21,944 nucleotides of DNA from a virus: IMG/VR virus record IMGVR_UViG_3300047554_000247, positions 1 to 21,944 of that record; one strand, given 5' to 3'. Positions 12,606-18,323 of this stretch are shown here, in pieces. Position 1 is the first letter of the stretch, and each line of letters begins with the position of its first letter. The position numbers were made by a program, and so were the translations under genes. The notes under the pieces were generated by a model. The model worked only from the letters and a program-made list of their open reading frames with translations, ran no database searches and had not been told where the DNA came from.

Positions 12606-13631
12606 TTACAAGAAAATGTTTCTGTAGTCGTCTAAAAGGAATATCCAGTCAGGTTCATGGACTGAAAATGTCGATATTTTCTTAGTTTTGTTCTTAGCAT
12701 AATGTTCAAACCCTAAGCTAGAAAGAAACTCACGCATTTGCCATCGATGTGTAGTAGAATCGCCTGGAGTGCGAGTGAATGGTTCTTTGGTAGTAATAGC
12801 CCATCTCTGGAAGTCTTCAGAGTCGAAAAACCCATGAATTAGATCGAACTTGTCTTTTTCAAGTAAAATTTTATGTTCATATATTGCAGTATACCAATCT
12901 AAGTTAAAGATGCAATACCATCTTAGATCAGCTACTGTTTCAATTTTTCTAGGAGAAGCGTCAATCATGGGTTGAAAAAATTCTAGAATTTCTTCTGACA
13001 CATTCTTCTCGTATGGCTCGTAAATAGTTTCTGGAGTCCCAAGTGTATGATGGAACATCGCATTTCCACCATTAGCGAACATATCGTCTGTTGGACCGAA
13101 TAGCTGGTTACCGCACATACCACTAACATAGATCTCATCTACATTTTTATAGTTTAAATCGTTTCTTTTAGCTACACCTATATCAAATTCAAATTTATTT
13201 TTTATATCTCTATCGAATAAGTCGCCAGATTCGACTATAGAATTATAAGTGCCAAGAACCTTAACTTGAGATTTATCAGTAGCACACTCATGTAGGATGT
13301 ATAAAATGTATGTACTGTCTATCCCGCCAGACCACATAACATTAATCTTTTTGCCAGAAGAAAGTAGCTGCTTAGCACGTTCTACAGAAACCTCATGAAA
13401 GGACTTATTAAATCCTTCTGTAGAAGGCATTGGATGTTTATCTGGAGATATCTTTAGAAAGTGCGGTAGTTTACCAGTTCTATCGTAGATTGCATTATAT
13501 GAATTTAACCCAAATTTTTCATACAGCTCAAACGTGCTACGATGTCCTGTTATGAATGGTGTGGTTTCTAATAATGTTGGGTTTTCTCTAAGAATCTTAG
13601 AGACTAGTTGTGGGTGATAATAAAGTATCAT
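12606..13631 (-). CDS. Asparagine-synthetase-like ATP-pyrophosphatase lacking a glutaminase domain
   Basis: A 341-residue protein. The PP-loop VMWSGGIDSTYILYIL (98-113) is the ATP-pyrophosphatase signature of asparagine synthetases and relatives. VSGMCGNQLFGP (169-180) aligns with the SGEGSDEIFGGY motif of AsnB, but Asn-Gln replaces Asp-Glu. The N-terminal Ntn glutaminase domain of AsnB is absent: the protein starts MILYYHP, with no Cys2 nucleophile, and about 90 uncharacterised residues precede the PP-loop. It may use free ammonia or another amine, or activate a carboxylate for a different ligation. A GAGGA Shine-Dalgarno sequence lies 4 bases before the ATG, just after a terminator. It follows the radical SAM/TRAP cassette. 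By eye it is more AT-rich than the structural genes, suggesting separate acquisition. The substrate is unknown. Confidence 0.8.
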   Translation of the reverse strand: MILYYHPQLVSKILRENPTLLETTPFITGHRSTFELYEKFGLNSYNAIYDRTGKLPHFLKISPDKHPMPSTEGFNKSFHEVSVERAKQLLSSGKKINVMWSGGIDSTYILYILHECATDKSQVKVLGTYNSIVESGDLFDRDIKNKFEFDIGVAKRNDLNYKNVDEIYVSGMCGNQLFGPTDDMFANGGNAMFHHTLGTPETIYEPYEKNVSEEILEFFQPMIDASPRKIETVADLRWYCIFNLDWYTAIYEHKILLEKDKFDLIHGFFDSEDFQRWAITTKEPFTRTPGDSTTHRWQMREFLSSLGFEHYAKNKTKKISTFSVHEPDWIFLLDDYRNIFL

Positions 13632-13687: not shown

Positions 13688-14632
13688 TTAGTGTAGTTGA
13701 ATCTTCTCAACTAGACCTGGAGTGAAGTAGTCAGCAAATTTAGCGTAAACTGGAGCAGTAACTTCTTTGAAACGTGCTTCTTGTTCAGCAGTCATCTTAA
13801 CAACTTCAACACCCTCAGCTTCGCATTGAGCCAAGATGTTTGGAATGTCTGCAACAGATTCACGACGCTCAGCACGAGCAGCGTTAAATGCAGCAGTAGA
13901 CAAGATCTCTTGAGTTTCAGCATCGAACTGCTTGAAGAAGTCTTGGTTTACGATGATAGAAGTCAAGAACAAGCTATGTGCTGTATCGTTAACAACTTTG
14001 AAAGACTTATGCTGGTCCAGTGGGAATACACGAACGTAAGTAGACTCACCAGCTTCGATCAAACCTGCATCAGCAGCAGCGTTCATTTCTTCCAAAGCGA
14101 TGTGTTCTTTAGGTTCAGCGCCAAGCAACTTGAACGTCTCAACAGCAACTGGAGAACGGCTAGTACGAACTGTACGACCTTGCCATGCTTCTACAGTGTC
14201 AGCCTTAAAGTTAGCTGGAACGACACGGTAACCACCAGAGTAAGTGAAAGACATAGCATGAGTGTTGGAATTCTTAGCAACACCAGCCAATAGATCCATA
14301 CCAACAGAACCTTCTAAAACTGCATCTGCGTGAGCGTGGTCACGGAACAGGAATGGAAGATCTAGGGCGTGTAGGTCTTTGTTATAGTCAGCTAACCAAG
14401 TAGTGTAGATATGGCTCATTTCGATGGTGCCATCGTCAACTAACTTCATTAGTGCATCTTTGGTAATCTTTCGACCACCATTGTATTTTGCAGAGTAGTC
14501 AGACAAAGAAAGGACTTCGATGTCGAAAGCACCGTTAGTTTTCTCGTTGACTTCTTTTGCGAATCGTTCTGCTACTTTCAAAAACAAACCGATTGGCTCG
14601 TGGGCGATGACCCACTTTACATGTTTAGTCAT
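13688..14632 (-). CDS. TRAP-type (DctP family) solute-binding protein without signal peptide
   Basis: A 314-residue protein that matches the mature part of TRAP substrate-binding proteins over its length: WVIAHEPIGLFLKVAERFAK (7-26), EVNEKTNGAFDIEVLS (27-42), HALDLPFLFRDHAHADAVL (88-106), the WQGRTVRTSRSP block with the substrate-carboxylate arginine position (R156), VETFKLLGAEP (164-174) and NDTAHSLFLTSIIVN (215-229). These proteins normally deliver organic acids to a membrane transporter from the periplasm. Here no signal peptide precedes the domain and no DctQ/M membrane genes are present, so the product should stay in the cell or be built into the virion. The ATG overlaps the upstream stop (ATGA), with Shine-Dalgarno AGAGGA 9 bases before it. 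By eye, base composition resembles the structural genes more than its two AT-rich neighbours. Confidence 0.88.
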   Translation of the reverse strand: MTKHVKWVIAHEPIGLFLKVAERFAKEVNEKTNGAFDIEVLSLSDYSAKYNGGRKITKDALMKLVDDGTIEMSHIYTTWLADYNKDLHALDLPFLFRDHAHADAVLEGSVGMDLLAGVAKNSNTHAMSFTYSGGYRVVPANFKADTVEAWQGRTVRTSRSPVAVETFKLLGAEPKEHIALEEMNAAADAGLIEAGESTYVRVFPLDQHKSFKVVNDTAHSLFLTSIIVNQDFFKQFDAETQEILSTAAFNAARAERRESVADIPNILAQCEAEGVEVVKMTAEQEARFKEVTAPVYAKFADYFTPGLVEKIQLH

Positions 14633-14922
14633 TTCTTAGTTTCCTCTAAAATGTTGGTATCGAAAATCCAACTTTCCTTTTGGTTATTTAGGTCTATCAC
14701 TCTTCTCATGATAGGTATTTTATTATTTATAACGAACTCTATTGTAGACTCGTTAGGGAATCCATCAATATATTTAGTTGGAATAATAGTTCCTCTAGCC
14801 CCATAAACAGGAGTTAGAGAGTTATAGTGAAAATAATCACCAATAGTGAATAAATCTAAGTTCTCACCGAACCTAGGATACTGATTTATCTCTACGAAAG
14901 TTTCGTCGATGAAAGGTGTCAT
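14629..14922 (-). CDS. Small protein of unknown function in the radical SAM cassette
   Basis: A 97-residue acidic protein that I do not recognise. It is rich in Ile, Asn, Phe and Tyr (DLFTIGDYFHYNSLTPVYGA, TIEFVINNKIPIMRRVIDL) and has a predicted beta/alpha mix, no cysteine, no signal peptide and no membrane segment. Its start overlaps the stop of the radical SAM gene (ATGA) and its own stop overlaps the next start (ATGA), so the three products are probably made together. No Shine-Dalgarno sequence is visible, in line with coupled translation. It could be a partner or recognition protein for the radical SAM enzyme. Without Cys it is not an obvious thioether substrate. A late-promoter match lies within it. 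Confidence 0.75.
   Translation of the reverse strand: MTPFIDETFVEINQYPRFGENLDLFTIGDYFHYNSLTPVYGARGTIIPTKYIDGFPNESTIEFVINNKIPIMRRVIDLNNQKESWIFDTNILEETKK
14724..14731 (-). promoter_or_regulatory. Possible internal late promoter TATAAATA
   Basis: A perfect TATAAATA on the coding strand inside the 97-residue gene (over codons for Val-Ile-Asn-Asn), 91 bases upstream of the TRAP-like gene. It could raise late expression of that gene alone. The AT-rich coding context makes a chance match possible. Confidence 0.4.
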
Positions 14923-16301
14923 AGAGATTTAATAGGTATAATTTTCTTGGTAGTTTTTGGAATACCGTAAACCATCCCGAAGATGTCTTTTCTATCTTCT
15001 GGCATAGCCTTATTTTCGTCTTCGATATAAATCGGAATCATCCCTGTCAACATCTCGATAGAGCAGCAAAATACGACGATATTATCGCTGTATGAATTCG
15101 TACAAGTAGTTTCCCACAGTGGACCAGTTAGGAAGAAACAAGCACCTTTACATATATGTAATACAGGACAGTTGGGGCATTCTTCACGATCGCTCCAATG
15201 AGTTCCTGTAGCGACTTCCACAGAAGATAAGCTAGAAACATGGCCAATATGATGTGAAATACCAGAAGGATTGGTAGAAACTGTTGACACGTTCTGACAA
15301 GTTAGAACATTTCCGTTAAGGTCTATCGCCATATTATCTGAAAGATCCATACCACACTTTTGTGTGATATCTTCAGATCTTTTACCATTAGAAATAGAAT
15401 TAATAAAGTTATCTACCTTAGTTTTAATAGTGCTATAACGAGTTACATATCCAGCACGAATTTCATCGAAAGTGAACTTTCTAAAGTTCATTTCCTGTTC
15501 TGCATTTTCCAAGGAAGAAGTGACGCCACCTTCGTCATATGCGTCGATGAATGTACCTTCACCTATTAGTAAATACTGTAAGTAATGTTCACCCAATTCT
15601 GTTGCAATTAGCTTTTCAAAAAACTGTTGAACACTGGCTCTACTGATATTTTTAGCAGTTACCATTGAGTTGAAACTCAAACGATTTTTTGTCGCTAATA
15701 CTTTATAAGCGTACAGAATTCCTTCTTTACTCTCTTTATCATCTAATGGGTCTGGACCACGAACAAACTGTCCTGGACCATCATGTGAAATACCGATACT
15801 AAATCCCAGATTATCTAACCAATCAACCTTTTCTTTATCTAAAAGACTTCCGTTAGTTATAATAGAAAAATTAGAGTTTGGGTATTTCTGTCTTATCTGT
15901 TCTGCTAGAGGTTTTAAGGTTTTCCAATAAACCAAGGGCTCACCACCCCAAAATTCAAAGGAACGATTTAATCCTAGCTTATCATCACCACCATCAAACC
16001 AAGTTTCCATATTTGACACAAAGGGAGCTATATCATCTGGATTGGTTGAATCTGCATGCGGTACAAATCTCTGGTTACAATACTCGCATTCGTAATTGCA
16101 AGATAACCCGAGTTGTATTTTTACAGTTTTTGGATTTTTACCAGTCTGAATCTTGACCTGTTTTTTCTCAGTTAGATCGAGGTTGGTTTGGATGACTGGG
16201 GAACCATCTTCCCAGTTTAGAGTGCTGTACTTAGAATCATAAACAACTTTCTTTCTTTCCTGAGTCACTGGATGAGAAAGAGTAACATTAAATTTTGCCA
16301 T
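14919..16301 (-). CDS. Radical SAM/SPASM peptide-modifying enzyme
   Basis: A 460-residue protein. CNYECEYC (C68, C72, C75) is the CxxxCxxC site for the SAM-binding [4Fe-4S] cluster. FWGGEP (117-122), SIITNGSLL (146-154) and GFSIGISHDGPG (166-177) are further radical SAM barrel motifs. The C-terminal SPASM domain has C316, C335 (in GNVLTC), then C375, C378, C384 and C388 (CPNCPVLHICKGAC) and C400, enough for auxiliary clusters. SPASM enzymes usually modify ribosomally made peptides or proteins, for example by thioether bonds in sactipeptides and ranthipeptides, or by formylglycine in sulfatases. An N-terminal extension of about 58 residues precedes the barrel. The ATG has AAGG 8 bases upstream. 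The gene starts a cassette with two ATGA overlaps and follows fibre-region genes, including one ending in (Asn-Cys)4, its best candidate substrate here. Confidence 0.93.
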   Translation of the reverse strand: MAKFNVTLSHPVTQERKKVVYDSKYSTLNWEDGSPVIQTNLDLTEKKQVKIQTGKNPKTVKIQLGLSCNYECEYCNQRFVPHADSTNPDDIAPFVSNMETWFDGGDDKLGLNRSFEFWGGEPLVYWKTLKPLAEQIRQKYPNSNFSIITNGSLLDKEKVDWLDNLGFSIGISHDGPGQFVRGPDPLDDKESKEGILYAYKVLATKNRLSFNSMVTAKNISRASVQQFFEKLIATELGEHYLQYLLIGEGTFIDAYDEGGVTSSLENAEQEMNFRKFTFDEIRAGYVTRYSTIKTKVDNFINSISNGKRSEDITQKCGMDLSDNMAIDLNGNVLTCQNVSTVSTNPSGISHHIGHVSSLSSVEVATGTHWSDREECPNCPVLHICKGACFFLTGPLWETTCTNSYSDNIVVFCCSIEMLTGMIPIYIEDENKAMPEDRKDIFGMVYGIPKTTKKIIPIKSL

Positions 16302-16316
16302 AATATACCTTAAATT

Positions 16317-16341
16317 ATAAAGGGGATCTAGTCCCCTTTAT
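16317..16341 (-). terminator. Hairpin upstream of the radical SAM gene
   Basis: The minus strand reads ATAAAGGGGA, loop CTAGA, TCCCCTTTAT: a perfect 10-bp stem followed by AATTT. It directly follows the stop of the upstream Ig-like gene and ends 15 bases before the radical SAM start. The T-run is short, so it may be a partial terminator or an attenuator. Confidence 0.7.
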
Positions 16342-16346
16342 TTATT
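16339..16346 (-). promoter_or_regulatory. Candidate late promoter AATAAATA overlapping a stop codon
   Basis: A match to NATAAATA. The stop codon TAA of the upstream Ig-like gene lies inside it, and its last three bases belong to the following hairpin stem. Transcripts starting 5-7 bases downstream would lose most of the left hairpin arm. The radical SAM ATG is 37 bases downstream. Confidence 0.6.
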
Positions 16347-17136
16347 CGACTGGAATGATAATCTGATTTAGAGAAGGGACTCTTCTATAACCTGCTCTTA
16401 CACGAACAGCTTCTCCTGCTACTAAGTCTGTAGAATATGCAGTAAGAGATCCTGTTCCATTAGTCAATGTAACACGTTGTTTATTAGTTAAACCATAAAC
16501 TGCATCTATAAAAACTTCTTTGACAGAAGGATCTGCGCTAACAGTAATAGTCACAGAAGAATTTGGAGCAATTGTCTGTGAAGAACTAGTTAATGTGATA
16601 GTAGGTAAATGTTCTTTGAAACCTGCCACAGTAGTTGCAGACTCTGCTGCTGTTTTAAGAGTTCCAGCGTATTGATAATTAGCGTTCTGTGGAGTTCTTA
16701 AAACTACTGTCCAAGTTGAAAAATCACCATCTTGATCGTCTACTAAAATATAGAAAGGATATGAATTGTATGGAGCATTAGAAGATGGCTTAGAACGGCT
16801 TGATAATGTATCAGCAAAGATATCAATAAATTCTGAAGGTGGTATCACATACGCTTCGGTAGGAATACCTTCAGAATCTGATACAACTTGCACAGATGGG
16901 TTCACACCATATACAACAAAGTCTGCACCAGTACCAAATTGTTTTAGATTAGCAGCTAATACTTTATTCCATAGAAGTACGGAGTCTGTATTATCAGTAT
17001 TGTGCTGAACTACTTTTATTTCAAAATAGTCGTCGTTACCATCAAGATGAAATGTAACACCAGAACTTTCTTTTTGTGGTATAGTTGAAGTTGTGTAATC
17101 TGGATTACCAACTATGTGTTTTTTAATCTTAATCAT
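16342..17136 (-). CDS. Ig-like virion or fibre-accessory protein
   Basis: A 264-residue protein, starting at ATG 17136 (MIKIKKHIVGNPDY). A longer frame opens at TTG 17154 inside the preceding gene. I prefer the ATG because AGGA lies 6 bases upstream, the same layout as in neighbouring genes. The N-terminal 165 residues are unrecognised (KVVQHNTDNTDSVLLWNKVL, YVIPPSEFIDIFADTLSSRS, FYILVDDQDGDFSTWTVVLR). Residues about 176-264 look like an Ig-type beta-sandwich (LTSSSQTIAPNSSVTITVSA, then PSVKEVFIDAVYG, RVTLTNGTGSLTA and GEAVRVRAGYRRVP). It lies between the (Asn-Cys)4 fibre and the radical SAM gene, with an 11-base gap to the former. It could be a fibre-tip partner, but no function is proven. 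Confidence 0.75.
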   Translation of the reverse strand: MIKIKKHIVGNPDYTTSTIPQKESSGVTFHLDGNDDYFEIKVVQHNTDNTDSVLLWNKVLAANLKQFGTGADFVVYGVNPSVQVVSDSEGIPTEAYVIPPSEFIDIFADTLSSRSKPSSNAPYNSYPFYILVDDQDGDFSTWTVVLRTPQNANYQYAGTLKTAAESATTVAGFKEHLPTITLTSSSQTIAPNSSVTITVSADPSVKEVFIDAVYGLTNKQRVTLTNGTGSLTAYSTDLVAGEAVRVRAGYRRVPSLNQIIIPVE

Positions 17137-17147
17137 TGGATATCCTA

Positions 17148-17174
17148 TTAGCAATTACAGTTGCAGTTACAGTT
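17148..17174 (-). other. C-terminal (Asn-Cys)4 motif
   Basis: Codons AAC TGT, AAC TGC, AAC TGT, AAT TGC, then TAA (residues 384-391). Four strictly alternating Asn-Cys pairs end the fibre. Variation at both third positions shows that the pattern is not a simple tandem DNA expansion. It could be a crosslinking, metal-binding or radical-SAM substrate tail; nothing in the sequence decides between these. Confidence 0.85.
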
Positions 17175-18323
17175 GTGTGCTCTTAGCAACATGTTGGTTC
17201 CTTGACGAATTGTATCATAAACACCAGCAGTATAGAAAATAGTTGGGTAATGGTGATAGTTAGCGTTACCAAAACAGTTACCAATAACACGACCGCCACC
17301 ACCGTCAACGAAGAAACCGTAGTTACCCAAGTTGTTAGAGAATTGTGACAAGTGACCTGGCCAACCACCGCCAGCAGAAGATGCGTAACCTGCAGAACCA
17401 GCAAAACCAGCGTATGAGACGTTAGTGACGGAAACCGCACCAGTAGCACCCTGAACAGATGTAACAGGAACAGAAACGGTAACAGCACCTGTGTTACCTT
17501 GAACAGATGTAACAGCAGCGTTAATAGTAGGGTTACCAGCAACACCGCTACCGTTATCAACAGTAATACCAGCACCAGCAACAATTGATCTAGTAGCAGA
17601 AGCACCAGAACCAGTTCTAATGTAGATACCAGTACCTGCCTGACCAGACAATGCTGTTAATTCAGCAGAGTATGCTTGGACATCTGTACCAATACGAACA
17701 CCTAGCGTAGCACGAGCAGTAGCTGCATCAGCGTCCGCCATATGGCCACGCATGTAAGAACTAGATGTAAAAGTAGCTGCTGTACCAGATCCAGTAAAAT
17801 ATGGAACTAAGTTAGCTCCAGAAACGATACCAGCTAATGCTGCTAATTCTGCGTCATATGCTTGGACGTCTGTACCAATCGCTAGACCTAAGGCAGTACG
17901 AGCGCCAGCTGCAGTAGTAGAACCTGTACCACCAGAGCCGATAGCTAAAGCAGTAGAAAGGGTGATAGAACCGCTAGTGATTGCTGCAACACCAGAGAAA
18001 GTACCAGAGAAGGTAGAAGCTGTGATGGTGTTAGCTGCAAAGTTACCACTAGAGTCACGAGTAACAACAGAGCTCTTGTCAGTAGCTGCTGGAAGTGCAG
18101 AAGAGTTAGCTAAACCACGAACTAAGTCAGCATCTACACCAGATCCAGTACCATCAACTGTGATAAGTTTGGCTAGGACGTCTGCTGCAGTATAAGAAGC
18201 TGCAGTTTGACCAGTTTGGATTGCGTTACTTAAGTTCGTAAAGTTAGCATCGACTTCGGCGTTTGTAAGAGGGCTACCTTTGGTAGATCTTAGCGTAATT
18301 GATGGTGCGGAAATGCTTGCCAT
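17148..18323 (-). CDS. Tail-fibre-like protein ending in (Asn-Cys)4
   Basis: A 391-residue protein. The N-terminus ([20 protein letters not shown], then TNLSNAIQ) is a fibre head seen in many phage tail fibres. The shaft contains duplicated blocks ([20 protein letters not shown] and [40 protein letters not shown]). The last about 90 residues form a Gly/His/Tyr-rich tip ([39 protein letters not shown]) ending in [10 protein letters not shown]. Apart from one further N-C pair (VIGNCF) the protein has no Cys that I see. The repeat is encoded with mixed synonymous codons (AAC/AAT, TGT/TGC), so the protein sequence appears to be kept, not a simple DNA repeat. Shine-Dalgarno AAGGA precedes the ATG by 7 bases. 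A C-terminal run of exposed Cys suggests crosslinking, metal binding or enzymatic modification. Confidence 0.88.

Follow-up and report, generated by a model that had tools for sequence, protein, structure and literature searches.

A radical SAM/SPASM maturase coupled to the (Asn-Cys)n ends of phage tail fibres: probable maturation of a trimeric fibre tip

In the His-Xaa-Ser system, radical S-adenosylmethionine (SAM) maturases are paired with repeat sequences. The window analysed here, a viral fragment of 21,944 bases (IMG/VR record IMGVR_UViG_3300047554_000247), encodes a radical SAM/SPASM enzyme and a tail-fibre protein whose C-terminus consists of four Asn-Cys pairs, (Asn-Cys)4. HxsB of the His-Xaa-Ser system shows a weak similarity to this enzyme, whereas the system itself has His-Xaa-Ser repeats, two maturases (HxsB and HxsC) and no known tie to phage fibres. 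The top structural match is the SCIFF/ranthipeptide maturase CteB (PDB 5WGG and 5WHY), which likewise combines radical SAM and SPASM domains with a Cys-rich substrate encoded nearby and an implied three-Cys auxiliary cluster I (AuxI). However, the substrate in the window would be a virion fibre without a removable leader, ending in alternating X-Cys pairs and not in a six-Cys peptide. The ranthipeptide NxxcA contains a beta-thioether between Cys23 and Asn20 (PMC8326336), which fits the N-x-x-C spacing found throughout (Asn-Cys)n, although NxxcA has a single link in a short Streptococcus peptide and the phage substrate would be a structural protein. The anaerobic sulfatase maturase (anSME) anSMEcpe (PDB 4K36-4K39), which modifies a Cys in a large protein, gives the best sequence similarity among curated families, but the phage enzyme lies far under the curated cut-off, has one AuxI Cys fewer and would act on a substrate without a sulfatase motif.

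Short alternating motifs also occur in the T4 gp37 and pyocin fibres, where HxH motifs bind iron and a single HxH per chain places six His around one Fe in the trimer (PMC6116203). Similar to these trimeric fibres, the three chains of the window fibre are predicted to meet on an axis; the HxH fibres, however, use histidine and metal and have no known dedicated enzyme. In working principle, the system in the window is one variant among SPASM maturase systems. What appears undescribed is its proposed use to complete a virion: the first-pass annotation knew of no phage fibre matured in this way, and we found no description of a radical SAM-matured fibre tip in the open-access literature, most subscription journals and preprints being outside that scope.

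The best explanation of the locus as a whole is a maturase devoted to the trimeric fibre tip, which would alter the Cys residues there and probably install thioether links; on comparative sequence evidence we consider this explanation likely. Its central part, the action of the enzyme on the (Asn-Cys)n tail, appears highly probable. Three differently seeded searches for the motif and the enzyme carry this conclusion. In the trunk-first search, the query was residues 1-150 of the window fibre, a stretch free of both motif and enzyme. Forty-eight loci offered a complete fibre with 3 kb or more of downstream sequence; motif and enzyme were both present in 36 of them, the motif only in none, the enzyme only in none, and neither in 12. 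The Fisher p value of 1.4e-11 is overstated, as related phages are not independent, and the absence of mixed cases is the key point. Twelve fibres seemingly accompanied by the enzyme without the motif were resolved on reading the downstream genes. In these loci the fibre ends in a chaperone-type-looking domain, and the motif (up to eight pairs) lies on a separate downstream gene of 123-140 amino acids. Since the motif on this separate gene is still accompanied by the enzyme, the enzyme follows the motif and not the fibre.

The motif-first search used a DNA pattern encoding (Asn-Cys)3 followed by TAA or TAG in IMG/VR and found at least 119 loci. Among the matches listed, 84 end an open reading frame (ORF) of at least 80 amino acids, and the other 35 served as a control. 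An enzyme homologue was present in the same record for 64 of the 84 (56 at the locus level and eight from a whole-record search, one of these a fragment at a contig end), but in only one of the 35 control records, about 57 kb from the hit. Of the remaining 20, 11 are on contigs that end 0.07-1.4 kb past the motif, before the enzyme position of their type, and nine belong to three other families. As background, a near-full-length enzyme homologue was found in 3 of 50,697 GenBank phage records, two of which are the same phage. The three other families (L018/L047/L066/L082/L100, L015/L061/L074 and L055), with no enzyme homologue in the record, end in '...YVKGESNCNCNC', '...ELCGLENCNCNC' and '...IKLNCNCNC'; they are other proteins and were set aside, possibly reflecting a different use of the same (Asn-Cys)3 ending.

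Enzyme-first, the window enzyme yielded 49 IMG/VR loci, and the family profile yielded 80 loci in bacterial genomes, mostly prophage-like (Limnohabitans, Burkholderia paludis, Magnetospirillum, Thalassobacter and Rhodoplanes). Pooled with the motif-first set, this gave 188 loci, of which 155 have at least 3 kb upstream. A locus was scored positive when a same-strand ORF had three or more X-Cys pairs either at its end or ahead of a Hint domain. An alternating X-Cys terminus was present at 141 of the 155 loci, or 103 of 114 clusters at 90% identity, and on the opposite strand such an ending occurred in 10 of 8607 ORFs. In Campylobacter phage CP220 and Salmonella phage SPN3US, no terminal motif was found within 5-6 kb of the weak radical SAM homologues, whose neighbourhoods are also different; these were excluded from the counts. 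The C-terminal domain of the fibre as query returned few loci, mostly already found.

The genetic coupling is thus near-absolute, and the pairing of motif and enzyme is far beyond chance. It holds across several unrelated carriers (at least four families by whole length, about 11 by the last 80 residues), enzyme identities of 30-70%, and siphovirus, myovirus and prophage contexts. The functional link that it points to is about as strong as comparative genomics allows. The first-pass annotation had asked whether fibres ending in (Asn-Cys)n keep company with the enzyme and had proposed that the enzyme modifies the Cys-rich end. The near-complete co-occurrence, including loci with the motif on another gene, speaks strongly for that proposal, while the exact chemistry and the 'hardened tip' of that proposal we can only infer.

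In the window, the (Asn-Cys)4 run stands directly before the stop codon and is encoded by AAC TGT AAC TGC AAC TGT AAT TGC. An origin as a DNA microsatellite was ruled out because the synonymous codons are mixed and the run is conserved across many loci. Among 142 distinct motif ORFs, the runs contain 3-10 Cys (most commonly four), Asn precedes the first Cys in 129, and the run reaches the very last residue in 92. The carriers range from about 80 to more than 1000 amino acids. None is a short precursor with a leader and a cleaved core, as in ribosomally synthesised and post-translationally modified peptides (RiPPs); they are fibres or tip proteins of 80-140 amino acids with the motif at the C-terminus. 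At one locus (L261), the fibre has the trunk of the window fibre and a different C-terminal part, which suggests tip swapping; the contig ends there.

Hint domains normally cleave before their first Cys. At ten loci, a domain that starts CFP..T and has a conserved downstream His follows directly after the motif, and cleavage before its Cys would leave the motif as the new C-terminus. The end of the motif is therefore either free or could be re-exposed. In this the loci resemble Hint/hedgehog-type autoprocessing domains (PF05203 and PF01079), but the phage domains are predicted only to expose the fibre tail, and they would remove a C-terminal part, whereas a RiPP leader is N-terminal. The cultured Achromobacter phages JWF, a temperate siphovirus (PMC3899368), and 2-1 are among these loci, with a Pfam Hom_end_hint match above the cut-off and the Cys1 and His conserved.

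The number of motif ORFs per locus is one in 126 loci, three in 14 and two (adjoining ORFs) in a single locus. The triplets are short tandem paralogues whose positions pair in 40 of 42 best matches across loci, and their tails are position-specific, commonly with five, four and four Cys. The 14 triplet loci include near-identical ones, so that perhaps seven or eight are independent. A natural reading is that the triplet forms a heterotrimer where other phages would have a homotrimer; one or exactly three position-conserved motif genes are what is expected for a homo- or heterotrimeric tip.

The AlphaFold model of the enzyme (mean predicted local distance difference test score 92.3) contains the partial TIM barrel of radical SAM enzymes with the CxxxCxxC cluster motif, and the sequence passes the cut-offs of Pfam Radical_SAM (PF04055, 34.9 against 29.5 bits) and NCBIfam SPASM (TIGR04085, 31 against 27 bits). 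The seven-Cys SPASM motif C-x(9-15)-G-x4-C, C-x2-C-x5-C-x3-C, C is also present. All ten Cys of the two motifs (Table 1), which include the C68/C72/C75 triad and the SPASM Cys 316-400 that the first-pass annotation had read, are invariant in 46 homologues, and both the catalytic and the auxiliary Cys are intact. A structural search matched CteB with a Z-score of 23.7 (4.0 Å, 364 residues), followed by ChlB (21.3), anSMEcpe (20.2) and TigE (18.4). With regard to a possible RiPP recognition element, the CteB match takes in the N-terminal strands of the enzyme from residue 1. The top NCBIfam similarity, to the anSME equivalog TIGR03942, reached 63.6 bits with a cut-off of 349.45, PapB (NF047865) reached 57.7 with a cut-off of 340, and every curated RiPP maturase model listed stayed far under its cut-off. 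Because no curated maturase cut-off was reached, the window enzyme is assigned by sequence to a separate family, PHROG 1802.

In the alignment to anSMEcpe, C316 and C335 correspond to C255 and C276, whereas the fourth AuxI residue C261 has no counterpart in the window enzyme, leaving the set of eight auxiliary-cluster Cys incomplete. By alignment, AuxI thus has three Cys compared with four in anSME, the clusters themselves being absent from the model. According to a review, an auxiliary cluster of sacti- and ranthisynthases may have a free site at which a substrate Cys binds, while ligation is complete in SuiB, PqqE and anSME, with an Asp among the ligands in PqqE (PMC8326336). The AuxI site of the phage enzyme may well be open for a substrate Cys in the same way.

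Therefore, we propose the following model. The maturase would recognise (Asn-Cys)n at the C-terminus of its substrate, either a trimeric tail fibre or a small tip protein encoded separately, and would modify this tail before or during virion assembly. The alternating Cys of three parallel beta-strands would point the same way and meet at the three-fold axis. Their sulfur may be joined to carbons of nearby residues, with Asn as the first candidate as in NxxcA, and the resulting thioether links would lock the tip covalently, within or between chains. We lean towards a thioether as the leading, unproven product chemistry; that the links join different chains is doubtful.

Several observations weigh against parts of this model. 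Fourteen enzyme loci are negative by the rule, including divergent homologues with no motif found, though two of the loci scored negative (L169 and L203) show visible motifs that break the rule. D319 is invariant in the enzyme family and could complete AuxI as in PqqE, so that an open site is likely and unproven. Asn stands at position i-3 of Cys in 388 of 499 cases, a count that is largely a consequence of the repeat itself. The 641 spacer residues comprise 483 Asn, 72 Ala and 43 Asp, with each other residue below eight, and the non-Asn spacers mean that Asn may not be the acceptor. In addition, alternating Cys would suit metal binding too.

The enzyme could also act on the tail with another chemistry, such as epimerisation to D-residues, the oxidation of Cys to formylglycine that anaerobic sulfatase maturases carry out, or some other radical edit. 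Sulfatase maturases are indeed its top NCBIfam similarity and among its best structural matches, the epimerase EpeE is matched with a Z-score of 13.3, and the alternating residues resemble alternating D/L peptides. Yet the fourth AuxI Cys of anSME is missing, the tails of the motif ORFs contain no C/S-x-P/A-x-R motif of the sulfatase type, and the protein ranked first by structure, CteB, is a thioether enzyme; such a chemistry is unlikely in our view. It is still less probable that the alternating Cys serve at the trimer tip as metal ligands or disulfide partners, the enzyme having an unrelated or only supporting role. CxC repeats share the geometry of HxH and exactly three paralogues fit a trimer, but neither the 36/0/0/12 coupling to a SPASM maturase nor the presence of the enzyme where the motif has moved to another gene would be explained. 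Hitch-hiking of enzyme and motif in an exchangeable host-recognition cassette without a functional link is very improbable: the window layout does match the pelagimyophage host recognition cluster, where a survey recorded radical SAM gene cassettes as a variable part and drew no link to fibre ends (PMC7029224), but the pairing persists over the carrier families, identities and contexts given above, and the other cassette genes (DctP, PP-loop and small protein) are near the enzyme in only 13-15 of 155 loci.

Table 1. Features of the fibre-maturase locus in the window
Feature	Coordinates	Strand	Basis
Tail-fibre protein, 391 aa, predicted trimeric, C-terminus (Asn-Cys)4	17148..18323	-	PHROG, homologues, same-trunk relatives
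(Asn-Cys)4 motif, predicted substrate site	17151..17174	-	Codon reading and pairing tests
Conserved fibre-associated protein, 264 aa, N-terminal beta domain and Ig-like C-terminal domain (177-264)	16342..17136	-	Family in 124 of 155 enzyme loci; AlphaFold, fold search
Radical SAM/SPASM maturase, 460 aa, PHROG 1802 family	14919..16301	-	Profile and structure matches
CxxxCxxC radical-SAM cluster motif (C68, C72, C75)	16077..16100	-	Invariant in 46 sequences
SPASM domain, seven invariant Cys (C316, C335, C375, C378, C384, C388, C400)	15102..15356	-	NCBIfam SPASM and alignment
Small protein after the enzyme, 97 aa	14629..14922	-	4-base overlap with the enzyme gene; 13 of 155 loci

The arrangement described at first pass, a fibre ending in four Asn-Cys pairs, an immunoglobulin (Ig)-like protein and the enzyme in one direction, is present in every part (Table 1). 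The gene order with PHROG matches around these genes is that of a T4-like phage: terminase, neck-region genes and several fibres, followed on the same strand by a large tail protein, a small virion protein and the genes described here. The nearest relatives of the terminase are in Methylophilales phage Melnitz, marine cyanophages and pelagiphage HTVC008M (52-54% identity). The fibre was identified as such because its trunk matches PHROG tail fibres, its gene lies at the corresponding position and its homologues are cyanophage structural proteins.

The Ig-like protein belongs to a divergent family, sometimes with two copies at a locus, and is probably a fibre partner or chaperone. Its C-terminal Ig-like domain was confirmed in the AlphaFold model as intimin/invasin-like (Z about 10.8) and was the only part matched in a PDB fold search; full-length relatives were found only among predicted phage proteins. 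In JWF-type loci, a different protein takes its place. Neither the Ig-like protein nor the 134-amino-acid substrate type had a match in cultured phages. Homologues of 2-oxoglutarate (2OG)-Fe(II) oxygenases lie within 6 kb in 84 of 155 loci, and may add a second, hydroxylation-type modification in about half of the loci; at L049, L109, L150, L151, L159 and L193, one to three such genes lie between the fibre and the radical SAM gene. At L273 and L291, desaturase-like and other genes stand between the protein at the Ig-like position and the radical SAM gene, which is about 5.2-5.7 kb downstream of the fibre. At L141 (3298-4326) and L157 (8468-9976), the main enzyme has directly beside it a second radical SAM gene of divergent sequence.

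Two further genes of the window lie beyond the small protein, on the same strand. A DctP-type solute-binding protein of the tripartite ATP-independent periplasmic (TRAP) transporter type (13688-14632, E 4.7e-43; near the enzyme in 13 of 155 loci) appears to have no signal peptide, lies within the phage fibre cluster and might be a virion or cytoplasmic ligand binder. A PP-loop ATPase-like protein (12606-13631; 15 of 155 loci) has an SGGIDS motif and weak similarity to QueC and LarE.

Tentatively, the locus may represent a widespread virion maturation in which a radical SAM enzyme covalently joins the three chains at the tip of a fibre through C-S links, with versions formed by a heterotrimer of three dedicated tip proteins or exposed by self-cleavage of a Hint domain. 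If the proposed maturation is true, the peptide chemistry of radical SAM enzymes, familiar from antibiotics and enzyme cofactors, would also complete the host-binding end of viruses, and one function would apply to hundreds of phage genes that lack an annotation and to the (Asn-Cys)n ends of fibres. Such a system would also be a natural means of locking trimer tips covalently and would account for the Hint domains in some phage fibres.
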